Shown here in pieces: positions 4,885 to 59,761 of a stretch of 64,000 nucleotides of DNA. A program made the translations under genes and the position numbers. The stretch is from assembly GCF_008369915.1 (NCBI RefSeq), contig NZ_VSRN01000001.1:1674001-1738000 (forward strand), given 5' to 3'. The notes under the pieces are model-generated. The model was not told the origin of the DNA. It saw only the letters and a list, made by a program, of their open reading frames with translations, and searched no databases. The first letter of the stretch is position 1, and every line of letters starts with the position of its first letter. The DNA is from Dyadobacter sp. UC 10 (lineage in GTDB: Bacteria > Bacteroidota > Bacteroidia > Cytophagales > Spirosomataceae).

Positions 4885-6141
4885 TTACAAAATGATTATT
4901 TTGTGCATATTGCCTGTATTCAAATAGGCAATATGCAGGCCGCAACTGTCACAGATTTCCTTTACAATAGCAAGCCCAAGTCCCAGAGATTCCGGGCTAC
5001 CCGATTCTTTCTTAAATCTTTCAAATAATCTTTCAGGATCAATATTCAGATTTGCGCCTGTATTGCTGATACTTAGTAAATCGGGTCCGGATTCAATATT
5101 AAGGGTTCCTCCTATATAGTTATGCCTGATCGCGTTGCTAAGTAAATTTGACAAGAAAATATCCGCTAATGTCGGCGACATTACCCAGTGAAAACTACCT
5201 TCCTCCTTTATGTGGACAGTTATTCGCTTATGATTGAGAATATCTTCATAATCTTTTAATTTATCCTGCACCAACACGGTCAGATTTAGCTTTTTCTGTT
5301 CAGCGAACTGCTGGTTTTCAATCTTAGCCAGCAACAATAACCCCTGGTTCAACCTCGACATTCTTCGCGCCGCGTGGTATATCTCCTCTATCCAATGTGT
5401 CTGATTCTCACTCAGATCCCGGGATTGGATAAATTGCTCTACCCGCGCGTTGATCAGCGCAAGCGGAGTCTGGATTTCGTGGGAGGCATTTTCAGTGAAT
5501 TCCCGCAGACTTTTGTAATCGTGCTGCATTTTGGAAGCCATTTTGACCATCACTTCATTCAGCTCATTGAACTCCGAGATTTCACTGCTTTCAAATTCCA
5601 GTTTGCTGTTCTTTGTCCAGTCAAAATCCTTGATACGGGCGAGTGAACCATAAAATGGCCGCCACAATTTCCCCGACAAATTTCTTTGAAAAAAGAACAT
5701 ACCGACCATCAAAAGCGCCAGGAAGGTGATCATAGCCGCAGAAATCGCCTCAATCAGTTTGTAGGATTCCACAATGGATTTCCGGATCGCGACGCGGTAA
5801 GGCGAGCCACCGATCAGCGTATAAAAAGTGAGTTGCCGGAACGGGTCCATACTTTCCTCATATCGATTGTAGATCAGCGTATCGGTAAAGGCTGTTTTAT
5901 TCTCAAATTTCCCAAAAACAGGAACTACCTCGATTTTATTTTCGACAAAGTAAGAGTTGTTGGTCCAGGTATTATTCGAGCGGAGATAAGTCTCGAAATC
6001 GCGTTTTTCTACCATCAGACGACTTTCTACTTCATCATAAATCATGAAGGTAATGATCCAGTAAAAGGCAATACCTACCGCCAGATAAATGAACAGCGAG
6101 GCGAGCAGGTAGATCCGGCTTGTCTTTTCGAGCAGTTTCAA
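4885..6141 (-). CDS. sensor histidine kinase of a two-component system
   Basis: A 418-residue inner-membrane kinase. Transmembrane helix 1 covers about residues 10-34, a periplasmic sensor of about 95 residues follows, and helix 2 covers about 133-152. A short HAMP-like linker leads to the HisKA domain, with phosphoacceptor His221 in ENASHEIQTPLALI. The ATPase domain shows the N box (LLSNAIRHN) and the G2 box (ESLGLGLAIVKEI). In the G1 region the usual Asp is replaced (SISNTGANL), a change common in this Bacteroidota subgroup. The start codon overlaps the stop of the response regulator gene (ATGA), so the two are translationally coupled. The position opposite a TolC/RND efflux operon suggests that it senses an envelope or toxicant signal; the signal itself is unknown. 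Confidence 0.93.
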   Translation of the reverse strand: MKLLEKTSRIYLLASLFIYLAVGIAFYWIITFMIYDEVESRLMVEKRDFETYLRSNNTWTNNSYFVENKIEVVPVFGKFENKTAFTDTLIYNRYEESMDPFRQLTFYTLIGGSPYRVAIRKSIVESYKLIEAISAAMITFLALLMVGMFFFQRNLSGKLWRPFYGSLARIKDFDWTKNSKLEFESSEISEFNELNEVMVKMASKMQHDYKSLREFTENASHEIQTPLALINARVEQFIQSRDLSENQTHWIEEIYHAARRMSRLNQGLLLLAKIENQQFAEQKKLNLTVLVQDKLKDYEDILNHKRITVHIKEEGSFHWVMSPTLADIFLSNLLSNAIRHNYIGGTLNIESGPDLLSISNTGANLNIDPERLFERFKKESGSPESLGLGLAIVKEICDSCGLHIAYLNTGNMHKIIIL

Positions 6142-6815
6142 GGTGCAGTAAATTTGTATCCTATTCCGTATATAGACTGAATGTAGTCTTTCCCGCCTTT
6201 TTCCAAAATCTTGCGCCTCAGGTTTTTAATATGTGAATAAACCATATCGAGCGAATCAGAAGAATCCATATGATCGCCCCACAAATGTTCCGCAATCGCT
6301 TCTTTGGTCAATGCGACATCGATATTTGACAGAAAATAAAGCAGCAGATCGTATTCTTTCCGGGACAGTACCGTGTCTTTTTCGTGAATAAAAACTTTTC
6401 TGGAAGGAAGCTGCACGCGGATTTCTTTCCAGATCATATCGTTATTCCCCCCAAAATTCCGACGACGGATCAGTGATTTCACGCGCGCGTTGAGTTCCGA
6501 CAAATGAAATGGTTTGGTCATGTAATCATCCGAGCCAATTTCCAGCCCTTTGATCTTGTCTTCCAATGTATTACGGGCCGAAATGATAATTATCCCGGTT
6601 GCCGCAGCTATCTTTTTGAGAGTTTGCACGATATTAAAACCGTCTCCGTCAGGCAGGGTTAAATCCACGATCGTGCAATCATATTGGTACAAACTGATCT
6701 TCTCATCCGCCTGCCAGAAAGTGTTGGCCACTTCGCACACGAAACCCTCTTTCGACAGATAATCGACAATGCTTTCGGCCAGCCCTTTTTCGTCTTCCAC
6801 TACAAGTACTTTCAT
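6138..6815 (-). CDS. OmpR-family response regulator
   Basis: A 225-residue regulator. The receiver domain (1 to about 120) has the acidic pair in VVEDEK, phosphoacceptor Asp51 in IVDLTLPDGDG, the Thr/Ser site IIISAR and the Lys in DDYMTKPF. The C-terminal winged helix (about 130-225) includes LSRKEYDLLLYF and the recognition-helix end DSLDMVYSHIKNLRRKI. The start at 6815 gives the canonical MKVLVVEDE. A longer frame from 6863 would read through the promoter elements and is rejected. It forms an operon with the kinase (4-bp overlap). Divergent from it is the TolC/RND operon, and the intergenic region contains a mirrored repeat that is its probable binding site. Confidence 0.95.
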   Translation of the reverse strand: MKVLVVEDEKGLAESIVDYLSKEGFVCEVANTFWQADEKISLYQYDCTIVDLTLPDGDGFNIVQTLKKIAAATGIIIISARNTLEDKIKGLEIGSDDYMTKPFHLSELNARVKSLIRRRNFGGNNDMIWKEIRVQLPSRKVFIHEKDTVLSRKEYDLLLYFLSNIDVALTKEAIAEHLWGDHMDSSDSLDMVYSHIKNLRRKILEKGGKDYIQSIYGIGYKFTAP

Positions 6816-6835
6816 CTTATCCGATTGAATTGCGT

Positions 6836-6868
6836 CAAAAATACGCCCCGAATCTGGAAACATTTAGG
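6836..6868 (-). promoter_or_regulatory. promoter and putative regulator site for the two-component operon
   Basis: Read on the minus strand: a 15-mer CCTAAATGTTTCCAG (6868 to 6854), a 10-bp gap, then TATTTTTG (6843 to 6836), an exact match to the Bacteroidota -7 consensus TAnnTTTG. No -33 TTTG is present; the 15-mer sits in its place, as expected for an activator-dependent promoter. Transcription would begin roughly 14 nt before the response-regulator ATG. The same arrangement recurs in mirror image at 6912-6944. Confidence 0.65.
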
Positions 6869-6978: not shown

Positions 6979-8412
6979 ATGTACCGACTCCGTTTCAAAC
7001 CATTTCCACCGGGCAGAAAATCTGCGCTCGTTCCCGAAAATGCCTTCAAGCTGATAGCACTGCTCCTCATCCTTTGTGTAAATGCAAATGCCCAGCAAGT
7101 GCAGTTGCAGGAACTTTTGGAAGAAAGTAAACAGAATTTCCCCTTTCTCAGATCCAAACAGGCCGAGATAAGAAGTGCCGAAAACCGCATTAAGTCTGTC
7201 AAAACCGGCTATCTGCCTGCGTTGATTGTGCAGAACCAATATACTTTCGGTACCGATAACAGCGTGGCCGGCTCTTTTTTACCAAACGAAGGCAGCGCCA
7301 TTTCTCCGTCGGGCGGTATCAGGCCCGAGAATATTTACACAGGTACTTTCGGAAGCTTTACTACCGCGCTGGTCGACTGGCGTGTTTTCAATTTTGGTAA
7401 GGTAAAAGCAGAAGTCAATGCTGCAAAAGCAGACCTGAACCGAAGTCAGGCTGATTATGAAAACGAGCTTTTCCAGCATCAGGTGCGTGTTATTGACGCT
7501 TATCTGGTTCTTTTGATCAATCAAAAGCTCGTAGAAGCGCAGCGGCAGAACCTGCAACGCGCGACTGTTTTCAAGAATGTTACAGACGCGGCTGTCAGCT
7601 CGGGCATGCGTCCTGGCGTTGATAGTTCGCTCGCGGCCGCCGAATTTGCAAAAGCGCGGCTGCTTCTGCTGGAAAGCCAGCGCTCGGAAAAGTCACAGCG
7701 GCTTCGTTTATCCGAGCTGACAGGCGAACTGCGTGATAGTATTCAGGTCGATAGCATGGGATTCTATTCCAAATTGCCTGTTGCCAGCGGCGCAGACGAT
7801 GCATTTCTTAAAAACCCTGCATTGCGCTTTTCGCAAGCCCAGCTGGATGCATCCATGGCGAGAACTCTGGCTATTAAAAGGTCATTTTTGCCTTCCATCT
7901 CCTTAACTGGCGCGGGTTGGGCACGGGGATCGGGCATTTCCAACAAAGACGATTCCTATCATACCAGCTTTTCGAGCGGGGTTAACTACCAGGTTTATAA
8001 TTATTTATTCGGGATTTCTACCCGCTGGAACCTGACCAACATTGCCAGGGTAAGAAACGATTACAAAAGCGAGCAGTTCCAGGTGGAGCGTTTCAAGGAA
8101 ATTTATCAAACCCAAAAATTACAGCTCGACCGCCAGGCGCGCGAAGCTGAAATGCAGCTGGCGCTTTCCATGGAGCAGGCACGGCTTACCCCGGTACAGC
8201 TGAATGCGGCGCAACGTGCTTTCAACCAGGCAGAAGCCAGGTACCAGAGCGGGTTAACCGACCTTTTCACATTGGCCCAGAGTGTCAATGCATTGAACCG
8301 CGCGGAAGTTGACAAGTTCGTAACCAACGGAAACGTCTGGCGCTCGCTGCTGATGAAAGCGGCTGCGGCGGGGGATATCTCCATTTTTTTGAATCAGGTA
8401 GAAAATAAATAA
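6979..8412 (+). CDS. TolC-family outer-membrane efflux protein
   Basis: A 477-residue protein whose N-terminus contains a hydrophobic segment ending in NANAQ, a signal-peptidase I type site, after a positively charged extension of about 25 residues. The rest has the two-fold repeated structure of outer-membrane factors: long amphipathic helices (LEESKQNFPFLRSKQAEIRSAENRI at the start, reappearing as LQLDRQAREAEMQLALSMEQ) and beta segments (YLPALIVQNQYTFG; SFLPSISLTGAGWARG) that build the trimeric channel. It would form the outer-membrane exit duct for the RND pump encoded 5 bp downstream, in the same operon. A later start may be the true one, because the signal peptide lies unusually far from the first Met. 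Transported substrate unknown. Confidence 0.92.
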   Translation: MYRLRFKPFPPGRKSALVPENAFKLIALLLILCVNANAQQVQLQELLEESKQNFPFLRSKQAEIRSAENRIKSVKTGYLPALIVQNQYTFGTDNSVAGSFLPNEGSAISPSGGIRPENIYTGTFGSFTTALVDWRVFNFGKVKAEVNAAKADLNRSQADYENELFQHQVRVIDAYLVLLINQKLVEAQRQNLQRATVFKNVTDAAVSSGMRPGVDSSLAAAEFAKARLLLLESQRSEKSQRLRLSELTGELRDSIQVDSMGFYSKLPVASGADDAFLKNPALRFSQAQLDASMARTLAIKRSFLPSISLTGAGWARGSGISNKDDSYHTSFSSGVNYQVYNYLFGISTRWNLTNIARVRNDYKSEQFQVERFKEIYQTQKLQLDRQAREAEMQLALSMEQARLTPVQLNAAQRAFNQAEARYQSGLTDLFTLAQSVNALNRAEVDKFVTNGNVWRSLLMKAAAAGDISIFLNQVENK

Positions 8413-8417
8413 TCCTT

Positions 8418-11400
8418 ATGTATCAACTCATTCGAACCGCACTCCGACAACCGATTTCCATTGTCGTAGTTGTAATTGGAATCTTATTCTTTTCGGTACT
8501 ATCAATCCGCAGTATTCCTGTCGACATTTTCCCAAATCTGGATTTGCCCACTATTTATGTAGTGCAGCCTTACGGTGGTATGGCGCCTGACCAGATGGAC
8601 GGATTTATTGCTACGCGTTACCAGGATCACTTTCTGTACGTTTCGGGAATCCGGGATGTAGATGTAAAAACGATCCAGGGGCTTTCACTGATCAAACTTT
8701 CCTTTTATCCGGGAACAGATATGGCGCAGGCGGCAGCCGAGGTCGCAAATAACGTATCACGGGCAAAAGCTTATATGCCCGAAGGTACTGTGCCTCCGCA
8801 GGTAGTACGGTTTGACGCGAGTTCTGTGCCGATCGGACAAATGGTTTTTGAAAGTTCTTCCCGTTCTTTGAATGAAATCCAGGATTTTGCTTCGTCGCGG
8901 GTACGGCCAATGTTCAGCCGGATTGAAGGCGTTTCCAGCCCGCCGCCATTTGGTGGAAACCAGCGTACGATCGTAATCCGCGTCGATCCCGAGCGGATCA
9001 GAAGCTATCATTTGACGCCAGAGGAGATCATTAAATCCATCATCACAAATAACCAGCCTTCGCCGGCGGGTAACATCCGAATGGGCGATCGCACTTTGAT
9101 GACGCCGGTTAATTCCCTGATCAAAAAACCGGAGGATTTCCTCAATATCCCGATTCGCATTGGCGCAGGCCCGACGGTTTTTATCCGCGATGTAGGTACC
9201 GTGGAAGACGGCGCCGACGTGACGGTCAGTTATGCATTGATCAATGGCCGCCGCGCGGTTTATATCCCGGTTGTTAAAAAATCAGATGCCTCCACGCTCG
9301 ATGTGGTGAACAATATCCGCGCTGCATTGCCGCAGCTCAGGAATGCAGTGCCGGAAGATGTGAAGATATCGTATGAATTCGACCAGTCTGTATACGTAAC
9401 CAACTCGCTCAAAAGCCTGATCACCGAAGGTATCCTCGGCGCATTGCTCACCGGGTTAATGGTACTTCTCTTCCTCCGCGACTGGCGTAGTGTGATTATC
9501 GTGGTAGTCACGATCCCTATATCGATTTTGTCCGCAGTGATATTGATGAATTTGTTTGGACAAACGATCAATATCATGACTTTAAGCGGCCTCGCACTGG
9601 CGATTGGCGTATTGGTCGACCAGGCGACGGTGACGATTGAAAACATTCACCAGCACCAGGAAATGGGCAAACCCAAGGAACAGGCGATCTGGGATGCTTG
9701 TAAAGAAATCGCATTTCCCGAGTTCCTGATCCTGCTGGCTATATTGGCGGTATTTGCGCCTTCATTTGTTATGAGTGGCATTCCGAGATCGATGTTTTTA
9801 CCCCTTTCGCTCGCGGTAGGTTTTGCGATGATCGCCTCGTTTTTGCTTTCACAAACGTTGGTGCCGGTACTGGCCAACTGGCTTCTGAAAGATCACCCGC
9901 ATCATGAAGCGCCCACTTTGGCACTGGATAGCCAGGAAATAAATGATGTGATCGAAGAGGGTGCGCACCCTTCCCTGCCTCCTACCGGATTTGAAAAGTT
10001 CAAGCTGAAATATCTGAGCGTTCTCTCGGGTATTATGGGTCGCGGAAGACTTGTAGTACCGGTTTATTTAGTTGGAACAGTATTATTGATTGTAGGTGGC
10101 TTTCTGCTGATCGGTACCGATATTTTACCAAAAGCAAACAGTCACCAGTTCCAGATGCGCCTGCGGGTACCCGACGGAACGCGCGTGGAACGTACTGAAC
10201 AGGCGACATTGAAGGTATTGAACCTGATCAAATCGGAAGTAGGTAAAGAACATGTGGAAATTTCGTCCGCCTATGTTGGTACGGTGCCCTCAAGTTACGG
10301 TACTTCCAATATTTTCGTGTTCAACAGCGGCCCCCATGAAGCGGTATTACAGGTTTCGCTGCATGAAGATTTTCCTGTAAAAATGGATGCATTGAAGGAA
10401 AAGCTGCGCCAAAAAATTGGCAAAGAAATCCCGAATCTCACCATATCCTTTGAACCGATCGAGCTGGTTGACAAGATCATGAGCCAGGGCGCTTCCACTC
10501 CAATCGAAGTAACTGTGGCAGCGAAAGATGTGGAAGAGGCTGGCCGGTTCGCTAAGAAAATTCAGAAAGAAATGAAGCAGATTGCATTCCTGCGTGATGT
10601 GCAGATCGCGCAGCCACTGGAATATCCTGTTCTGGACGTAAAAATCGACCGCGAACGGGCCGGGCAACTAGGTATTACCTCCACGCAGGTAGCGAGATCG
10701 ATGGTTGCAGCAACCTCTTCCAGCCGCTTTACGGATAAAAATCTTTGGCTAGATGATTCAAAGGGGCTGGCTTACCAGGTGCAGGTTCAGATTCCGGAAT
10801 ATCAGATGACTTCGGTGGAAGATATTGGGACAATCCCATTGAAAACAGGCGTAAGTAACCCGCTGCTGGCCGATGTAGCCACTTTCTCTGAAAAAACAGC
10901 CCCCGGCGAATACGACCGCGCCGGCCCGAACAGGCTGGTAACTGTTACCGCGAACATTCATCAAAAAGACCTCGGCGCCGCTTCCACTGCGGTTAAGAGT
11001 GCGATCAAAAATGCGGGTGAGCCTCCGCGGGGGGTATTGGTGGAACTGAAAGGACAAACTGATCTGCTCACCGAAACACTGAGTAGTTTGCAAACCGGAC
11101 TTTTGATTGCGGTTGTAATCATGTTCCTGCTGCTTGCGGCTACCTACCAGTCTTTCAAGCTATCGCTGGTGGTTCTATCGACGATTCCTGCGGTTGTTGT
11201 AGGATCAATCGGACTGCTATTGCTGACCGGCGCTACGCTGAACCTGCAATCTTATATGGGATTGATTATGTCGGTCGGCGTATCGGTTGCGAATGCGATT
11301 TTGATGGTAACCAATGCAGAAAACCTGCGACTGAAATTACAGGATGCAGGTAAGGCAGTAATGCTCGCAGCCGGCAGCCGGATCCGACCGATTTTGATGA

Positions 11401-12776
11401 CGAGTATTGCGATGATCGCGGGAATGATCCCGATGGCGTCGGGGCTTGGGGAAGGCGGAGATCAGATTGCCCCACTCGGTCAGGCGGTGATCGGCGGACT
11501 CATCGCGTCTACATTGGCTTCACTGCTCATCCTGCCTGCTGTTTTCACGATGGTACAAAGGAAAGCTTCTGTGCATTCCGTTTCCCTTGATCCAGAGGAT
11601 CCAGATAGTAATTTTTTCCGCAAAAAACTTCAAACATCGATATCCATGAATACCCTGAAATCTCTTCTAATCATTCTGACGGTTACTATTGGAATGAGTG
11701 CGTGCAGTTCCGAGGCAGAAACGAGTAAGAAACACGAGCAAAAAGCTGAACAACGTGCTGCTGTGGAACTTGCGACGGTCCAAAGCCTGAAACCGGCCAA
11801 ACAAATTGCATTGCCCGGCGAATTGAAACCGTGGAATAAGGTAAGTATTTATCCGAAAGTGAAGGGATTTGTCAAAACCGTGCATGCAGACAGGGGAACA
11901 ATGGTTCGAAAGGGTCAGATTCTGGCGGTTCTGGAAGCACCTGAAATCCTGGCGGAACTGAGTCAGGCGAAAGCGCAACTGATCGCTGCGGAAGCAAATT
12001 TGCACGAAATAACCACGAAATATCAAACCAGCGCATTGACTTACAGCCGATTAGTGCGAACCAATAAAACAGAAGGCGCCGTGTCTCTCAACGAACTGGA
12101 TTTGGCGAAAGCAAGAGTGCTAACCGACAGCTCGGCGACTGCGGTTGCAAGAGGAAATGTGCAGGCGGCGAAATCATTTATGGAAACAAAAGCGGAACTG
12201 GCGAGATACCTGACCGTAACAGCGCCATTTGACGGAATTGTGACGGAGCGGAATATCAGTCCCGGTGCCTTGGTCGGACCCGGCGAAAGTAGCGCGAAGC
12301 CTTTGTTTATGCTCGAAGACAACACAAAGCTGCGTCTGACACTCGCTATTCCCGAAAACCTTTCCAGTGCGGTCCCTGCAAAAGGCGAGGTAAATTTTAC
12401 GGTGTCGGCCAGTCCGGAAAAGCAGTACAAGGCAGTTTACGCCAGAAGCTCTCGCACATTATCCGAAGAACATCGGGCTATGATCACTGAATTTGATTTT
12501 ATCAACAAATCAAATGAGCTGAAAGCGGGCATGTACGCACAGGTCTTGCTCAATACCGAAAGATCGGCTAATACCCTGTTCGTCCCTGTCACTTCGGTCG
12601 TAAATTCCAGCGAGCAGGTTTTTGTAATCCGTGATAAACATAATAAAGCGGAATGGGTGCCTGTAAAAAGGGGAACTGTTGTAGACACGCTTGTAGAAGT
12701 ATTCGGGGACCTGCACGCAGGTGATCAAATTGTGAGAAAGGCTTCGGAAGAGTATCGAAACGGTGAGAATTTGTAA
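8418..12776 (+). CDS. RND efflux permease continuous with a membrane-fusion (adaptor) protein
   Basis: One 1452-residue reading frame. Residues 1 to about 1060 are a complete HAE-type RND permease: RTALRQPISIVVVVIG helix 1, the IPVDIFPNLDLPTIYV porter start, a TM4 motif GVLVDQATVTIENIH with one Asp of the usual pair kept and the other Gln, and a final hydrophobic LASLLILPAVFTMVQRK. Residues 1077-1452 are a complete adaptor with its own lipoprotein-like start MNTLKSLLIILTVTIGMSAC (ATG at 11646), a biotinyl-lipoyl half (GFVKTVHADRGTMVRKGQ), a helical hairpin and the APFDGIVTERNISPG return strand. Normally these are two genes. Either the stop was lost and a real fusion is made, or the adaptor is also translated from 11646. 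In a fusion the adaptor's signal would act as a 13th membrane helix, placing the adaptor correctly in the periplasm. Confidence 0.9.
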   Translation: MYQLIRTALRQPISIVVVVIGILFFSVLSIRSIPVDIFPNLDLPTIYVVQPYGGMAPDQMDGFIATRYQDHFLYVSGIRDVDVKTIQGLSLIKLSFYPGTDMAQAAAEVANNVSRAKAYMPEGTVPPQVVRFDASSVPIGQMVFESSSRSLNEIQDFASSRVRPMFSRIEGVSSPPPFGGNQRTIVIRVDPERIRSYHLTPEEIIKSIITNNQPSPAGNIRMGDRTLMTPVNSLIKKPEDFLNIPIRIGAGPTVFIRDVGTVEDGADVTVSYALINGRRAVYIPVVKKSDASTLDVVNNIRAALPQLRNAVPEDVKISYEFDQSVYVTNSLKSLITEGILGALLTGLMVLLFLRDWRSVIIVVVTIPISILSAVILMNLFGQTINIMTLSGLALAIGVLVDQATVTIENIHQHQEMGKPKEQAIWDACKEIAFPEFLILLAILAVFAPSFVMSGIPRSMFLPLSLAVGFAMIASFLLSQTLVPVLANWLLKDHPHHEAPTLALDSQEINDVIEEGAHPSLPPTGFEKFKLKYLSVLSGIMGRGRLVVPVYLVGTVLLIVGGFLLIGTDILPKANSHQFQMRLRVPDGTRVERTEQATLKVLNLIKSEVGKEHVEISSAYVGTVPSSYGTSNIFVFNSGPHEAVLQVSLHEDFPVKMDALKEKLRQKIGKEIPNLTISFEPIELVDKIMSQGASTPIEVTVAAKDVEEAGRFAKKIQKEMKQIAFLRDVQIAQPLEYPVLDVKIDRERAGQLGITSTQVARSMVAATSSSRFTDKNLWLDDSKGLAYQVQVQIPEYQMTSVEDIGTIPLKTGVSNPLLADVATFSEKTAPGEYDRAGPNRLVTVTANIHQKDLGAASTAVKSAIKNAGEPPRGVLVELKGQTDLLTETLSSLQTGLLIAVVIMFLLLAATYQSFKLSLVVLSTIPAVVVGSIGLLLLTGATLNLQSYMGLIMSVGVSVANAILMVTNAENLRLKLQDAGKAVMLAAGSRIRPILMTSIAMIAGMIPMASGLGEGGDQIAPLGQAVIGGLIASTLASLLILPAVFTMVQRKASVHSVSLDPEDPDSNFFRKKLQTSISMNTLKSLLIILTVTIGMSACSSEAETSKKHEQKAEQRAAVELATVQSLKPAKQIALPGELKPWNKVSIYPKVKGFVKTVHADRGTMVRKGQILAVLEAPEILAELSQAKAQLIAAEANLHEITTKYQTSALTYSRLVRTNKTEGAVSLNELDLAKARVLTDSSATAVARGNVQAAKSFMETKAELARYLTVTAPFDGIVTERNISPGALVGPGESSAKPLFMLEDNTKLRLTLAIPENLSSAVPAKGEVNFTVSASPEKQYKAVYARSSRTLSEEHRAMITEFDFINKSNELKAGMYAQVLLNTERSANTLFVPVTSVVNSSEQVFVIRDKHNKAEWVPVKRGTVVDTLVEVFGDLHAGDQIVRKASEEYRNGENL

Positions 12777-12829: not shown

Positions 12830-13774
12830 CTATTTTTTCATATTTTCACTAATAAATTGTTGTTTGTCAGACTGAGTTAATAAGCCTTTATTTATAAGGC
12901 CGTTAAACCATGTAGAAAATCTTCTTGCACCCCGAAAATTTAGGTGTCCAAGGTCGCCGAACTCCGAATTTGCTACGGGAAAATCTTTGAAATCTAAAAA
13001 ATCTACATGATCAAACCTAGTTTTAAGTACCTTTTGAAATAATTTTTCATTAGAAACCATTGGGTGTCTTTTATGAATTGGGCTTCTAACCAGGTATACC
13101 TTTACTTTCTTCGATTCACAAAATTCAATTATTTTTTTCAGGTAATTCAAGTTGTATTCAGAGGTATGCATTCCAGTAGTCGCTGTATTTGTATTCGTAC
13201 TTAATTTTTTAATTTCTTTATTAACATCATTTTTGATTAAGTACCGGTACGATCCTCTATTTGCCACATAAGAATAATTGGATGTAGCTATAATGGTAAT
13301 ATTTTGACGTAAATTCTTTTTAATTCCACTAACAAGCCCAACTGGATTTTTATCTAACAACAAACTAAGCCCAGCCGAGTCTATGAATGACCCGTAAAGT
13401 TGGTACTTAAAGGGCAAATACTTATCTCCCCAAATCCAGTCAGTCATGATCGAGTCTACCTGATTGTTTGTAAACTCTATGAAAATTGACTTTATGTTAC
13501 TGTTATTATTAATTAAGGGCTTTAAAGTATAGTAATTATAAAAATAGGATGTTCCGGAAGAGGCCATATTTTTACAATTTGTTATTATAGTGTCATTATA
13601 TGCACATTCCGGATGTGAATGACCAATAACAATTTTATCAATATTTGAATTTACTTTGTAATTCGTTTTATCTATGATTGAACTGCTTGTAACATAGCTA
13701 CCTAAGATAAAAATCATAAATAAGCCCGCTAACACTGCAAAGAAAATAGTGATGTTGTATAAAAAATTTTTCAT
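12830..13774 (-). CDS. SGNH-hydrolase-like membrane-anchored protein, partner of the MBOAT acyltransferase
   Basis: A 314-residue protein with one N-terminal membrane anchor (about residues 6-28, FLYNITIFFAVLAGLFMIF). The rest is predicted to be periplasmic. An N-terminal IGHSHPECAYND takes the place of the SGNH block I, and the C-terminal FGDLGHLNFRGARRF matches the D-x-x-H block V with the catalytic Asp and His. Proteins of this kind (DltD/AlgJ-like) act with MBOAT proteins to move acyl groups, usually acetyl, onto surface polysaccharides; that is known for the families, and the substrate here is not known. Its start lies 5 bp after the stop of the MBOAT gene, so the two are surely co-transcribed. 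The gene is visibly more AT-rich than its neighbours on either side. Confidence 0.75.
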   Translation of the reverse strand: MKNFLYNITIFFAVLAGLFMIFILGSYVTSSSIIDKTNYKVNSNIDKIVIGHSHPECAYNDTIITNCKNMASSGTSYFYNYYTLKPLINNNSNIKSIFIEFTNNQVDSIMTDWIWGDKYLPFKYQLYGSFIDSAGLSLLLDKNPVGLVSGIKKNLRQNITIIATSNYSYVANRGSYRYLIKNDVNKEIKKLSTNTNTATTGMHTSEYNLNYLKKIIEFCESKKVKVYLVRSPIHKRHPMVSNEKLFQKVLKTRFDHVDFLDFKDFPVANSEFGDLGHLNFRGARRFSTWFNGLINKGLLTQSDKQQFISENMKK

Positions 13775-13779
13775 TTAAG

Positions 13780-15228
13780 CTAAAATTGGAAATAAATAAA
13801 TGTCTGATTTTCTCCTGTAAATAAGAAAATCAGAATAACTACTGAATAATAAAATCCCCAACGTACTGGCTTGATCCAAGTTGTTCCCAATTTTTCGATA
13901 GCGTATTTTTCTTCCCTCCCTTGCCATTCGATTAAAACAAATAACCCTAGCAGAATAGTTGTAACCAGAGATTTTTTATCTCCTGCAAAACTGGGAACTG
14001 TGAACAATGAAGTTGAAAATATCTCAGCTATATAATTAAAAGCGTGCGACACATTGTTCGCCCGAAAGAATATCCAGGCGAGTACCGTTAATGCAAAAGT
14101 CGATATAATAGCAAAAAATTCTCTTAAAGTCGGAAACAGTCTCCCTTTTGCTACAATATCGAGATTATTTCGATTCGTGTTGAAAATTATTGATGGCAAT
14201 ATATAAATGGCATTTAATACTCCCCAAACTATAAATGTCCAATTCGCGCCATGCCAAAAGCCACTTACTAAAAAAATAATAAATGTATTTCGTACTTTCA
14301 TCCATGTGCTTCCTTTGCTGCCTCCCAATGGAATATAAAGATAATCTTTAAACCAGGAGGAGAGGGAAATGTGCCATCGCCGCCAAAATTCTGCGATGTC
14401 ACGGGAGAAGTAAGGGAAGGCAAAATTTCTTAAAAGATCAATACCAAATAATCTGGCTGTACCTAAGGCTATATCGGAATATCCTGAAAAGTCGCAGTAA
14501 ATTTGAAATGTGAAGAACAACGCTCCTACCACCAATGTACTTCCCGAATATGCATCAGAATTATTAAAAATTGTATTTGCATATTCAGCACAATTGTCCG
14601 CTATAACAATTTTCTTGAACAGGCCCCACAAAATTTGCCGAAGACCGTCAATTGCTTTTGAAGAATTGAATTTTCTCGCCTTAGTAAGTTGAGGCAGAAG
14701 ATGTGTCCCTCTTTCAATTGGTCCGGCTACAAGTAAGGGAAAAAAGCTGACAAATAGGGAATAAGGAACGAAATTCCTTTCGGGCTCAAACCTGCCCTTA
14801 TAAATGTCGATCACATAGGATAGTCCGTGAAACGTATAGAAGGATATACCTATCGGTAATATTATCTGCAAGGTTTCAAAATTAGCTCTAAATCCCAATA
14901 ACGCTAATCCATCGGCAAACGAATCGGCAAAAAAGTTGTAATATTTGAAAATACCAAGAAACCCGAGATTGATACTTATGCTTAGCCATAACCAAAACTT
15001 CTTACTTTTATGATTAGAAGCTTCATGTATCTTAATTCCAGTGAAATAATCTAATAAGGTAGAAAAAACCAGCAGTAGCATGAATCTCCAGTCCCAGCAG
15101 GAATAAAAGAAATAGCTGGCAAATAGTAATACGATGTTTTGCAGTTTTAGATTTTCTTTGGCAATAAACCAATGTATAAAAAATACAATTGGTAAAAATA
15201 AAGCGAAGTGTATAGAGTTAAAAAGCAT
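13780..15228 (-). CDS. MBOAT-family O-acyltransferase
   Basis: A 482-residue polytopic membrane protein. The start MLFNSIHFALFLP at 15228 is the standard N-terminus of the AlgI/DltB-like family; a frame extension to 15294 adds 22 residues of no family likeness. Key motifs are the cytosolic DFSGYSDIALGTARLFGI and FAFPYFSRDIAEFWRRWHISLSSWF, and the catalytic His326 in SGFWHGANWTFIVWG. The enzyme would transfer an acyl group across the inner membrane for modification of a cell-surface glycan. Downstream, 5 bp away, is its SGNH-like partner. No exopolysaccharide biosynthesis genes are adjacent, so the acceptor polymer must be made elsewhere. Base composition is low in GC, hinting at transfer from another genome. 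Confidence 0.93.
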   Translation of the reverse strand: MLFNSIHFALFLPIVFFIHWFIAKENLKLQNIVLLFASYFFYSCWDWRFMLLLVFSTLLDYFTGIKIHEASNHKSKKFWLWLSISINLGFLGIFKYYNFFADSFADGLALLGFRANFETLQIILPIGISFYTFHGLSYVIDIYKGRFEPERNFVPYSLFVSFFPLLVAGPIERGTHLLPQLTKARKFNSSKAIDGLRQILWGLFKKIVIADNCAEYANTIFNNSDAYSGSTLVVGALFFTFQIYCDFSGYSDIALGTARLFGIDLLRNFAFPYFSRDIAEFWRRWHISLSSWFKDYLYIPLGGSKGSTWMKVRNTFIIFLVSGFWHGANWTFIVWGVLNAIYILPSIIFNTNRNNLDIVAKGRLFPTLREFFAIISTFALTVLAWIFFRANNVSHAFNYIAEIFSTSLFTVPSFAGDKKSLVTTILLGLFVLIEWQGREEKYAIEKLGTTWIKPVRWGFYYSVVILIFLFTGENQTFIYFQF

Positions 15229-15316
15229 ATTATCTGTTTCTAAAATTTGACGACGTCCATATAAAATTTGACTTATGGAACGAATAATTGACAACTAAAA
15301 GGACAGGAAATATACT

Positions 15317-54820: not shown

Positions 54821-57800
54821 ATGAAGAAAGTATTGAAAGTACTGGCAATTATAATTTTAACAGTATTGATTCTGGTCGGGGTGCTGATCTGGGGAATTAC
54901 GACACCGTACGGGCAGAATGTTTTAACATCCCAGGCGAATTCATTCCTGCGAAAAAAGCTCAAAACCAATGTCAGTATCGAGAAGGTCCGCTTCGACATT
55001 CCGGACTGGATCATGCTGGAAGGTGTTTATTTCGAAGATACCCACGGCGACACGCTTGTTTCCGGCAAAAGACTGTACGTGGATCTGGATATGTTCAGTC
55101 TCATAAAGGGAAATATTGGTATCAACAAAGTGGAGCTGGAAGGGATCAATGCAAATATCAACCGGGTACTTCCCGATACCGTTTTCAATTTCCAGTTTAT
55201 TGTCGATGCATTTGCCAGTACGGACACGACTACCGTAGAAGATACTACCGCTGCGCCGTTGGAAATGCGACTCGATCAGATCTCGCTCAAACAAGTACGG
55301 CTTTCTTATCGCGATGCTGTAACGGGAATGGACGCAATCGCCGTTATTGATTCGGCACACGTCAAGTTTGACAAATTCAACCCTACCCTTTCCCAATACC
55401 ACCCAACTATGGTTGCCTTGCTGAACAGCGAGGCGAAACTGCGGATGTATGCACCACTTAAAACCGCCGCAGCTGGCCCGCCAGTCGCTGAACCAAAAAC
55501 TGAGCCGGGGGACACGTTAGATCTGAAATTGGGCGATATTGATATCAGCCAGTTCAAATTTCAGTTTGAAGATGAGGTTTCAGGTTTGAAAAACGGGATC
55601 ACGCTTGACAAGTTGCAGGGACATATCAATAAGCTTTTTCTGGAAAGCCAGCAGGTGGATGTAAAAAGTGTGAGCCTGGAAAACATGTCGCTTTTTGCGG
55701 AGTTTGCTAAAAAGCAAAAGGTGGCCGAAAAGAAGGATACTACTGCTACTGCACCCGAAACGCCGGGCTGGAATGTAAAAGTGGGGCAGATAAAATTAGT
55801 AAATAATGATATCCGGTACGATGATAACAACTCCCCTGCTCAACCAAGAGGACTCGACTTTGCGCATTTGAATATAAAAGACCTGAATATCGATCTGCAG
55901 GATTTTATCTTCTCGCCGGAAACGATAGCGGGAGCGTTGAAATCTGGTTCATTCAATGAAAAAAGCGGATTTAAATTACGGGAATTTCATACCGATTTCG
56001 CTTACGGGGAACAGGAAACTTACCTGCGCAACCTCCTGGTAAGGACTCCCAATACGACCTTGCGCGACGAATTAAGCCTGCGTTACGCTAATCTGGAACA
56101 GCTCACAAACGATATTGCGAAAGTCAAACTCAAACTGAAACTGACCAACAGCCGCGTTTCTTTTGCCGATGTACTGTTGATCATGCCGGATCTGGCGAAA
56201 ACGCCTCCTTTTGACAAAGAACCAAATGGTGTAGTGCAAGGCTCGGCCAATATCACCGGCTCCGTGAATGATATGCTGATTTCGAAAGCCGATTTCCGCA
56301 TGCTCAATGGAACGGTACTAAATATAAATGGTCGCGTGCAGGGATTGCCGGAAGCTGAAAAACTGGCAATGGATCTCAATATCAGCGAAATTTCCTCTAC
56401 TAAACAGGATTTGATGAAAATGCTTCCCGATAGCGCAGTACCTGCGTCGATCGAGCTGCCGGAGGATATTAAGATTTCGGGTAAGGTGAAGGGTTCGATG
56501 GAAAACCTGACGATGACCACGACCATCAACACTTCTTTTGGAACGGGAACATTTTCCGGAAACCTGAAAAATATTACCGATAGCTTAAAAGCACAATACA
56601 ACGGTACGCTCGCATTCGAGGATTTTGATCTTGGCAAACTTACAAAACAGCCACCCGCGGAAATGGGCAAGCTTACGCTCCGGACGGATCTGGAAGGTGT
56701 CGGTTATGCGCCTAATACCATGAAAGCACGGCTCGACGGAACGATCGCCAGTGCAGATATTAAAGGTTATGTATATCAAAACCTGACATTAAAAGGCGAC
56801 ATAGACCATGGAATGGCGAATGTAACAGCCGATATGGAAGACCGGAACATCGACGTCAACCTCACTGCCCAGGCTGATCTTTCCAAAGAATATCCTGCCG
56901 TAAAAGCAGACTTGTCGATCGACCATCTTGACCTGACTGCGCTAAATCTATATGCAGACTCTTTGCAGATCAAAGGGGATATCCAAGTCGATATGCCTTC
57001 GACCAACCCTGAAAATCCCCTTGGAACAGTCAATATCAGTGACCTGGTACTTACCCACCACCGCCGGCCAACTACCGTCGCAAATATCAATATGGCGCTG
57101 ACGGATTCGAGCGGAAAGCGGCAGGCCAATATCGATTCGCCTTTTTTGAAGGTAAAAATGGAGGGTGATTATTCCTACACTAAACTTGGCGACGCCTTAT
57201 TGACGGAGATTGGGAAACACTTTAAAGCACCGGACCTTACTTACACGGAAGTAACCAAGCCGGTCAACTTTACGTTGGACGCCACGGTAACTAACCACCC
57301 GGTTTTTCAAATGTTCGCGCCGCAGTTGCGTGAGATGAACCCAATTCAGTTTCATGCCGAGATGGACAACCAGAAAGATTCATCGATTGTGGCGAAACTG
57401 AGTATTCCAATGGTGGATTACGACAGTATCCGAATCGAGCGCGTTTCCGTTGATTTGAGTACCGTGGATGAAAATGCCGCGCTGAATGCGAATGTTGGCT
57501 CGGTAAACACAGGCAGTTTCAGAGTACAAAAAGCCTCTTTGGCGAGCAAAATCGTTAATAATGACGTCAAATTTGACTTCATCGTAAGAGATTCTGTCAA
57601 TACCGAACAGCATATGGTGAAAGGTGACCTGATGATCGCTGACAACCGCTACCGCCTCAACCTGCGCGAAAACCTGCTCTTAAATTATAGTGAATGGGCG
57701 ACAGACACTTCTGGCTACATTCAATATACCACTGATAGTCTTTATGTAAAGGATTTTATAATTAAAAATGGCGAACAGTCGCTGGTGATCAATTCTACTA

Positions 57801-59761
57801 CCCCAGAGCCGAATAGTCCGCTGGATATTGCCATGTCCAATATCTCCATTGGAAAACTGATCGAAATCGCTACCCGCGATTCGACGATGGCGACGGGAAT
57901 ATTGAATGGGAAGGTACTTTTGAGCAATTATATGACTGCGCCGGTTTATACCGGTGACCTGACGATCGACAGTCTGGCGGTGACCAAAATTCCGGTAGGA
58001 AATCTGTCGGTGAAATCGACCAATGAAACCGAAGACCTGATCAAGGTTGCGATGTCGCTTGTGAGCAGCCAGAATGATATTGCCATCGACGGAAGTTACA
58101 ACCTGAAATCCGACTCGCCGATGGATTTCAAAATGGCACTAAAAAAGCTCAGTGCACAGACAATCGAGGCATTCAGTTTTGGGGAGTTGAAAAGAGCAGA
58201 AGGTAACCTGACGGGAGATATTGCAATTACAGGCGCAACCGACAGCCCCCGCCTGAATGGCGCAGTTAATTTCGACAAAGTAGCTTTCAAAGCAACACAG
58301 CTCGGCTCGCGCTATTCGCTGGCAAATCAGAAGATCCAGTTTAACGGACAAAAGATCAATTTCAACAATTTCACGATCGCCGATTCGCTGAACCAGCAAA
58401 TGAAGATCAACGGGAATGTGGATATTGCCAATATCCCGAATGTAGGATACGACCTGACGATAGAGGGTAAGAATTTCAACGTTCTTAATTCTACACAAAA
58501 AGAAAACGAACTGTTTTTCGGAAAGGCCAACATTGACGCTAACCTGACAGTAAAAGGTGTAGGCAGTAAGTCGGTGATCGACGGGAGCGTAAAAGTAGAC
58601 CCGGGCAGCAACATTACTTTTGTGATGCCAAATGACGCTACCGAGGCTGGCGACGCGACGAAAGGGGTGATAGAATTTGTCGATATGAGCGATTCTACAC
58701 AAATCGCGCTGGCTGATTCTGCTGAGAAAGCTGAAAATATAGTAGTCGACTTCGCTTCGCAAATCTCGCTGGATATTGCCGTTGACGATAAATCTGAGTT
58801 TAAAGTAGTGATCGATGAATTGAATGGTGACAATATCCGATTGAAAGGAAATGCGCAGCTCAATACCGGTATTGCACCAAATGGTCAGCTATTCCTGCTC
58901 GGTTCTTACGATCTGACAGAAGGTTCTTACGATCTTACATTGCAGATTCTGAAGAGGCAGTTTCAAATCAAAAAAGAAAGCACTTTGCTTTGGACCGGCG
59001 ATCCGATGAAAGCGGACCTGAATATTACTGCCGCCTATGAAGTAGAGGTGGATCCGGGCTCGATCGCCTCCAAATTCCAGGGAGCGAGCAAGATCCCCAT
59101 CGAAGTGCAGATCGTGATCACAGGTAACCTGACTACTCCCAATATTACATTCAATATTGTTCCCGGTACCGGCATTGACGAACAGATAAAAAGTGACATT
59201 ACCGGCCAGATTTTCTGGAATGATATGAAGAATAATCCTTCGGAAATGAACAAGCAGGCATTCGCACTGCTGATCACGAATAAGTTTATTACCGACCAAT
59301 CGTCTTCCGGTTTCAACCTGGGCTCCAGTGCAGAAGCAGTGGCGCGGCAGAGTGTGAGCCAGCTATTGAGCGACCAGCTGAATAACCTGGCTTCCGACCT
59401 GATCAAAGGGGTTGACCTGGATATCGGACTTAACTCGACCGCTGATCAAACCACCGGCGCACGTACCGATTTGAATGTAGGGTTGAGCAAAGCTTTCCTG
59501 AACGATCGTTTGAAGGTTTCAGTGGGTAAAAATTTCGAGCTGGAAAGTCAGTCAAATTCTGCGAGTTCTTCAGAGGTATTCGACAACATCGCACTCGATT
59601 ACTCCATTTCCAAAGACGGCAGGTATATGTTCAGGGGGTATCGTAAAAATCAATATCAATCCATTCTGGAAGGTTTTATTATAGAAACCGGCGTGAGTTT
59701 CATTGTTACGGCGGATTATGATCTGTTCCGTGAATTTTTTCAAAAGCGAAATGAAGAATAG
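54821..59761 (+). CDS. tamB: translocation and assembly module protein TamB
   Basis: A 1646-residue protein with one N-terminal membrane anchor (VLAIIILTVLILVGVLIWGI). An AsmA-like start (TKVNVSIEK-type LKTNVSIEKVRFDIPDWIMLEGVYFED) is followed by about 1200 residues of repeated beta-strand segments of the type that builds a long hydrophobic groove, and by the conserved TamB C-terminal domain (from about residue 1270: DGSVKVDPGSNITFVMP, LTEGSYDLTLQILKRQFQIKKES, DLNVGLSKAFLNDRLKVSVGKNFEL). TamB bridges the inner and outer membranes and helps assemble outer-membrane components or transport lipids. The gene overlaps the start of tamL by 11 bp. Confidence 0.95.
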   Translation: MKKVLKVLAIIILTVLILVGVLIWGITTPYGQNVLTSQANSFLRKKLKTNVSIEKVRFDIPDWIMLEGVYFEDTHGDTLVSGKRLYVDLDMFSLIKGNIGINKVELEGINANINRVLPDTVFNFQFIVDAFASTDTTTVEDTTAAPLEMRLDQISLKQVRLSYRDAVTGMDAIAVIDSAHVKFDKFNPTLSQYHPTMVALLNSEAKLRMYAPLKTAAAGPPVAEPKTEPGDTLDLKLGDIDISQFKFQFEDEVSGLKNGITLDKLQGHINKLFLESQQVDVKSVSLENMSLFAEFAKKQKVAEKKDTTATAPETPGWNVKVGQIKLVNNDIRYDDNNSPAQPRGLDFAHLNIKDLNIDLQDFIFSPETIAGALKSGSFNEKSGFKLREFHTDFAYGEQETYLRNLLVRTPNTTLRDELSLRYANLEQLTNDIAKVKLKLKLTNSRVSFADVLLIMPDLAKTPPFDKEPNGVVQGSANITGSVNDMLISKADFRMLNGTVLNINGRVQGLPEAEKLAMDLNISEISSTKQDLMKMLPDSAVPASIELPEDIKISGKVKGSMENLTMTTTINTSFGTGTFSGNLKNITDSLKAQYNGTLAFEDFDLGKLTKQPPAEMGKLTLRTDLEGVGYAPNTMKARLDGTIASADIKGYVYQNLTLKGDIDHGMANVTADMEDRNIDVNLTAQADLSKEYPAVKADLSIDHLDLTALNLYADSLQIKGDIQVDMPSTNPENPLGTVNISDLVLTHHRRPTTVANINMALTDSSGKRQANIDSPFLKVKMEGDYSYTKLGDALLTEIGKHFKAPDLTYTEVTKPVNFTLDATVTNHPVFQMFAPQLREMNPIQFHAEMDNQKDSSIVAKLSIPMVDYDSIRIERVSVDLSTVDENAALNANVGSVNTGSFRVQKASLASKIVNNDVKFDFIVRDSVNTEQHMVKGDLMIADNRYRLNLRENLLLNYSEWATDTSGYIQYTTDSLYVKDFIIKNGEQSLVINSTTPEPNSPLDIAMSNISIGKLIEIATRDSTMATGILNGKVLLSNYMTAPVYTGDLTIDSLAVTKIPVGNLSVKSTNETEDLIKVAMSLVSSQNDIAIDGSYNLKSDSPMDFKMALKKLSAQTIEAFSFGELKRAEGNLTGDIAITGATDSPRLNGAVNFDKVAFKATQLGSRYSLANQKIQFNGQKINFNNFTIADSLNQQMKINGNVDIANIPNVGYDLTIEGKNFNVLNSTQKENELFFGKANIDANLTVKGVGSKSVIDGSVKVDPGSNITFVMPNDATEAGDATKGVIEFVDMSDSTQIALADSAEKAENIVVDFASQISLDIAVDDKSEFKVVIDELNGDNIRLKGNAQLNTGIAPNGQLFLLGSYDLTEGSYDLTLQILKRQFQIKKESTLLWTGDPMKADLNITAAYEVEVDPGSIASKFQGASKIPIEVQIVITGNLTTPNITFNIVPGTGIDEQIKSDITGQIFWNDMKNNPSEMNKQAFALLITNKFITDQSSSGFNLGSSAEAVARQSVSQLLSDQLNNLASDLIKGVDLDIGLNSTADQTTGARTDLNVGLSKAFLNDRLKVSVGKNFELESQSNSASSSEVFDNIALDYSISKDGRYMFRGYRKNQYQSILEGFIIETGVSFIVTADYDLFREFFQKRNEE

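Follow-up and report, generated by a model that had tools for sequence, protein, structure and literature searches.

The 64,000-nucleotide stretch of the Dyadobacter sp. UC 10 genome analyzed here (the window; contig NZ_VSRN01000001.1, positions 1,674,001 to 1,738,000) contains an open reading frame (ORF) of 1452 residues in which a resistance-nodulation-division (RND) permease and a periplasmic adaptor are joined (Table 1). An earlier sequence-only reading had described the frame in these terms, and domain analysis bears it out: the ORF is a single frame with zero internal stops, its permease part matches the full Pfam ACR_tran domain (residues 5-1046, E 4.9e-198), and its adaptor part matches Pfam HlyD_D23 (residues 1142-1374) as well as the RND periplasmic adaptor model TIGR01730 (residues 1116-1450; 159.9 bits against a curated cutoff of 94.9). 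Among the 25 of 40 NCBIfam matches shown, the frame stays under the curated cutoff of every permease model, the best being RND_permease_2 (555 versus 1250 bits). Both fusion partners are ordinary members of their superfamilies. Within the joined frame the adaptor has a start of its own, Met1077 (ATG at 11646-11648), followed by a lipoprotein signal peptide and the lipobox cysteine Cys1096.

The fused gene was found in one group of soil bacteria, the genus Dyadobacter, where 33 of 48 genomes have an open junction, at 76-100% identity over a 553-residue junction query; the nearest relative among the matches listed is Dyadobacter sp. CECT 9623 (97%). In the remaining 15 genomes, the best full-length matches among those listed are at most 54% identical. 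The 58 fused sequences retrieved correspond to 33 once duplicates between collections are removed, and in a midpoint-rooted tree of 89 permeases these 33 form one clade (support 0.971). Scoring of 144 loci, from which a sequence without adaptor (L159) was left out, gave 57 fused loci, all from Dyadobacter, and 87 separate ones, comprising 20 Dyadobacter paralogue loci and 67 others from Spirosoma, Larkinella, Runella, Siphonobacter, Chryseolinea, Mucilaginibacter, Hymenobacter and further genera. The fusion is a single, derived and conserved event in one Dyadobacter clade. The sequence-only reading had proposed comparing the junction in relatives to detect a sequencing error; because the junction is open across so much of the genus and the fused sequences form one clade, a sequencing or assembly error is practically ruled out. 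The same open junction occurs in other species, such as D. beijingensis (L096), D. psychrophilus (L107) and D. sediminis (L101), and no support for an error was found. One fused gene (L172, genome G043) is interrupted near residues 177-192 with its junction still open, and in genome G034 the match to the fused gene starts only at residue 37.

Independent fusions elsewhere were considered and rejected. Long frames reported by the genome search can read through stops, and fused or separate status was called from sequence; the long frames in other genera and among Dyadobacter paralogues, where checked in this way (part of those listed), all proved separate. The Dyadobacter paralogues L040-L051 come near to being fused, their permease and adaptor sharing a frame and being separated by only one or a few stops, yet 0/12 are fused. 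Further loci from searches of the order and the phylum were likewise all separate (fusion in 0/26), these searches sampling 390 and 395 genomes, with a limited list of matches and only a handful of candidates scored in each genome, so that rarer fusions may exist elsewhere.

The origin of the open junction can be approached through the unfused orthologues, which carry, with variations, the permease-frame tail SVSLDPEDPES[KN] and stop soon after it. Of the 46 unfused orthologues whose permeases are at least 70% identical, 21 have an ATGA in which permease stop and adaptor start overlap, the adaptor starts being picked by a simple rule (Met before the lipobox) that is surely wrong in some cases, e.g. 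L045, L134 and L158. The ATGA is kept in 33/33 fused genes, with its TGA out of the permease frame. In fused genes the ATG lies 45 nt (31 genes) or 42 nt (2 genes) from the DPED motif, that is 0 modulo 3, whereas in the 21 ATGA orthologues this distance spans 32-56 nt, with 15 of the 21 at 41 or 44 nt (2 modulo 3); a net gain of one base, or a loss of two, in the permease tail would explain the difference. The suggestion of the sequence-only reading that an indel bypassed an ancestral stop is therefore probable in its first part, although the stop concerned would be another one. Comparison of the sequences indicates that it was most likely the TGA of the ATGA overlap, at 11647-11649. The TAG TAA pair proposed instead (11606-11608 and 11609-11611) exists in another frame, but it is not a relic, because unfused orthologues read through this site in the permease frame and stop later. 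The TAG also requires GAT at codon 1063, where the residue is Asp in 1 of 33 fused sequences.

As a guess, the A6 run upstream of the ATG is where the base was added. The longest A run there is six in 23 fused genes and three to five in the other 10. Slippage at this run could restore the old permease stop in some transcripts, so that a separate permease, a coupled adaptor and a fused chain would all be made, and in the 7 sequences looked at, the frame ending in the TGA indeed has no stop within at least 24 codons upstream. This explanation is nevertheless scarcely likely, the six-A run that would favor it being replaced by shorter runs in those 10 genes and six A being, in general, short for slippage.

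The adaptor's own start looks to be still under selection. Met1077, Asn1078 and Cys1096 are each invariant in the 33 fused sequences, and residue 1095 is Ala, Ser or Gly in all of them, while the signal core between Met1077 and Cys1096 varies (ratio of nonsynonymous to synonymous polymorphism, pN/pS, 0.54). The lipoprotein-type signal at residue 1077 that the sequence-only reading had recognized is intact, its cysteine lying in a lipobox-like context in 33/33 sequences under a permissive pattern. Codons 1067-1081 are the gene's maximum of synonymous conservation, measured as codon choice against the gene's own average (z 5.3; the next peak reaches 3.65). None of 2000 codon shuffles matches this peak at any of the widths 9, 12, 15 and 20, and 1 of 1000 block shuffles reaches it. 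Per site, pairwise synonymous differences are 0.31 for the linker and 0.50 for codons 1077-1083, compared with 0.69-0.79 in five other regions.

The messenger around this start is also unusually unstructured. The mean minimum free energy (MFE) around the Met1077 ATG is -0.84 kcal/mol, the next of 39 Met codons having -8.49, and the context ranks 2 of 1425 codons for low structure (mean -12.9), rank 1 being the neighboring codon 1078. For comparison, permease starts average -2.9 (31 sequences) and rule-chosen unfused adaptor starts -4.2 (78). Synonymous recoding around Met1077 averages -5.8, with 0/300 recodings as unstructured as the observed sequence, a deviation of about +10.6 z (from mean and standard deviation) against z -5.2 to +4.3 at seven control Met codons. 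Upstream of the ATG, A occupies positions -14 and -13 in 33/33 fused genes and -12 in 27/33. According to the accessible part of PMC6847099, Bacteroidetes initiate without Shine-Dalgarno pairing, preferring little structure together with A at -14 to -11, -6 and -3, and the A residues at -14, -13 and -12 appear to agree with that motif. A conserved internal start in a constrained initiation region is what an in-frame internal-start gene would be expected to possess, and the fused gene seems to possess it, with mixed results from the controls.

We favor, at a probability of about 0.7, the reading that two products come from this one frame, the joined permease-adaptor chain and a free adaptor lipoprotein. 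The ancestral permease stop and adaptor start probably overlapped as ATGA, and the poorly conserved end of the permease would then have undergone a net shift of one base that put the TGA out of frame, so that translation runs into the adaptor. The start would have lost its coupling when the stop left the frame and would have had to become autonomous, an ATGA-coupled start needing little signal of its own; the adaptor ATG would thus have been retained as an autonomous, unstructured initiation site. The long chain of 1452 residues should be made because no in-frame stop ends the permease. The second product would be a free 376-residue pre-lipoprotein adaptor from Met1077, lipidated at Cys1096.

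In the case of the long chain, the signal peptide would follow twelve helices, which we take to be the RND topology, and because this number is even the adaptor would be exported, with the internal signal peptide serving as a correctly oriented 13th helix, as the sequence-only reading had envisaged. An AlphaFold2 model of residues 1006-1452 places a helix over 1077-1093 with a predicted local distance difference test (pLDDT) score of 47-61; confidence is low in the linker and high in the adaptor core, with pLDDT of 74-98 per 10-residue block from block 12 on. The α-hairpin, lipoyl and barrel domains are represented in the model by two helices of about 40 residues between strands, and Foldseek matches of the predicted adaptor fold include AcrA, MexA and MacA.

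The conserved lipobox would serve the free adaptor, and it may also let LspA cut the long chain between Ala1095 and Cys1096, making a polyprotein. That only the long chain is translated, with Lgt and LspA processing the internal lipobox into a permease that keeps the leftover signal helix and a lipidated adaptor made 1:1, is an explanation that we regard as distinctly improbable. The retention of Cys1096 and a small preceding residue despite the variable signal core agrees with it, as do two RND-TolC fusions in the same genome that have an internal signal-like segment without a preceding Met. The cytochrome b/c1 precursor, which is cut by signal peptidase, offers a precedent, although no paper recognized as describing it was found in the literature search. 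Processing alone, however, leaves the invariant Met1077 and the synonymous and structural constraint around it unexplained, and none of the literature consulted documents LspA acting on a signal behind twelve helices.

The ratio of subunits bears on the same question. A pump stoichiometry of 3:6:3 has reportedly been given in a paper's title. In the solved pump 5v5s, six AcrA chains are assembled with three AcrB chains. With a pure 1:1 chain, three adaptor sites would stay vacant; free adaptor from Met1077 would fill them, providing the extra adaptors of a 6:3 pump. The fixed 1:1 subunits expected by the sequence-only reading are unlikely, given this 6:3 composition and an adaptor start region that is the gene's most constrained synonymous stretch. 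A stable tether, in which the uncut chain alone supplies three adaptors per trimer, is very unlikely: the 5v5s chain counts stand against it, and the conserved lipobox and internal start would serve no need. In its favor, Hayashi et al. reportedly described engineered AcrB-AcrA fusions in J Bacteriol in 2016 that, by the title alone, act as efflux transporters. An extension of the two-product reading, rather less probable than not, is that the nested in-frame gene sets the ratio, with three tied and three free adaptors alternating in the hexamer and occupying hard-wired, non-equivalent positions, all through a one-base shift that destroyed stop/start coupling.

Several observations weigh against the two-product reading. 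Concerning the ancestor, 24 of the 46 unfused orthologues have a gap between permease and adaptor and 1 of 46 has another overlap, while a gap of 22 nt separates the two genes in L164, the closest unfused sister in the tree; with ATGA in only 21 of 46, an ATGA ancestor is likely but not proven. As an initiation site Met1077 is not ideal, since position -3 is U in 31/33 and position -6 is A in just 15/33, and U at -3 is disfavored in Flavobacterium according to the accessible part of PMC6847099. The controls are also less clear-cut than the peak itself: one control Met departs from its recodings as well (z 4.3), the regulator/kinase start overlap at the same loci gives z 1.49 (25 sequences), and the permease's own start (codons 2-16) reaches only z 2.79. 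The tolC end shows no synonymous peak in 24 of the 33 sequences (nine were not extracted), a control that is often not a true overlap, several permease starts lying up to 59 nt past the tolC stop. Finally, the lack of a regained stop in any lineage argues only weakly for the long chain being useful, because few single changes would create such a stop.

Table 1. Coordinates of the fused gene, its parts and neighboring genes in the window
Feature	Coordinates	Strand	Basis
RND permease-adaptor fused reading frame, 1452 aa	8418..12776	+	Pfam, TIGR01730; junction open in 33/48 genus genomes
Permease part, residues 1-1067, with tail SVSLDPEDP.SNFF common to unfused orthologues	8418..11618	+	ACR_tran 5-1046; tail comparison
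New linker (codons 1068-1076), which overlaps the presumed translation-initiation region of the adaptor	11619..11645	+	Synonymous differences 0.31 per site
A6 run, possible place of the net one-base shift (guess)	11622..11627	+	Sequence
ATGA: adaptor start Met1077 overlapping TGA (presumed ancestral permease stop, now out of frame)	11646..11649	+	33/33
Lipoprotein signal peptide of the adaptor (residues 1077-1095), lying inside the fused chain	11646..11702	+	Permissive lipobox pattern 33/33; helix in model
Lipobox Cys1096 (TGC)	11703..11705	+	33/33
Mature periplasmic adaptor, residues 1096-1452	11703..12773	+	TIGR01730; AlphaFold2 model; Foldseek
TolC-family outer-membrane channel gene, directly upstream of the fused gene	6979..8412	+	Pfam OEP
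Divergent response regulator, whose conserved start is probably codon 17	6138..6863	-	Pfam; relatives
Divergent sensor histidine kinase	4885..6141	-	Pfam; relatives

Regulator and kinase homologues are present in most of the named loci searched, with only about 30% identity in some distant loci, and many relatives of the regulator align only from about residue 13-17 of its longest ORF. On the other side, the pump is adjoined by an MBOAT acyltransferase (13780-15294) and a neighbor without Pfam match, both within 12830-15294 on the minus strand; elsewhere in the window lies a 1646-residue ORF (54821-59761, plus strand). Within the permease itself, the proton relay sites were placed across the 89 permeases by reference to AcrB residues. 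Asp401 in transmembrane helix 4 (TM4) is present in 89/89, followed by Gln402 in 86/89 and Glu in 3/89, and Ala958 of TM10 stands at the presumed site of the AcrB Lys in 88/89. The charged relay of AcrB consists of Asp-Asp in TM4 and Lys in TM10, and the Asp-Gln and Ala found here would make up a non-standard proton relay.

A natural fusion that 33 genomes of a single genus have retained, in which a free adaptor start is apparently still selected, could serve several purposes. Solved RND pumps have two adaptors per permease, and the fusion could test how many of them may be tied; it could also test whether LspA processes a signal peptide behind twelve helices, and show how two genes coupled by ATGA persist once the stop is lost. 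The second product would escape ordinary annotation of a single frame.

Fusion to the adaptor had been called less familiar in the sequence-only reading, and no paper on a natural permease-adaptor fusion was found in the open-access literature, most subscription journals lying outside the search. The accessible part of a Dyadobacter genome paper lists adaptors and TolC proteins and mentions no such fusion (PMC12584681). The locus resembles the AcrAB-TolC and MexAB-OprM pumps in its ACR_tran permease, its TIGR01730 adaptor with a lipoprotein signal, its adjoining TolC-family channel and the predicted adaptor fold, which matches those of AcrA, MexA and MacA. It differs from them in having permease and adaptor in one frame and in the gene order tolC-permease-adaptor. 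The engineered AcrB-AcrA fusions likewise join permease and adaptor but are artificial, whereas the Dyadobacter fusion is natural and retains signal peptide and start site. The two fusions elsewhere in the same genome (L007:1471-5853 and L009:1435-5856) are CzcA/CusA-like permease-TolC fusions (ACR_tran + OEP), in which an RND permease also runs into an exported partner via an internal signal-like segment; there, the partner is an outer-membrane channel and no Met stands just before the segment, which makes them a natural contrast. The cytochrome b/c1 precursor similarly combines a polytopic protein with an internal signal peptide, the Dyadobacter gene differing from it by its lipobox (LspA) and conserved internal start. 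In the case of SpaO and SpaO-short, the C-terminal short form joins the same complex as the long form, according to the accessible part of PMC12132427, whereas the short form predicted here would be a whole exported lipoprotein that is encoded by a separate gene in relatives.

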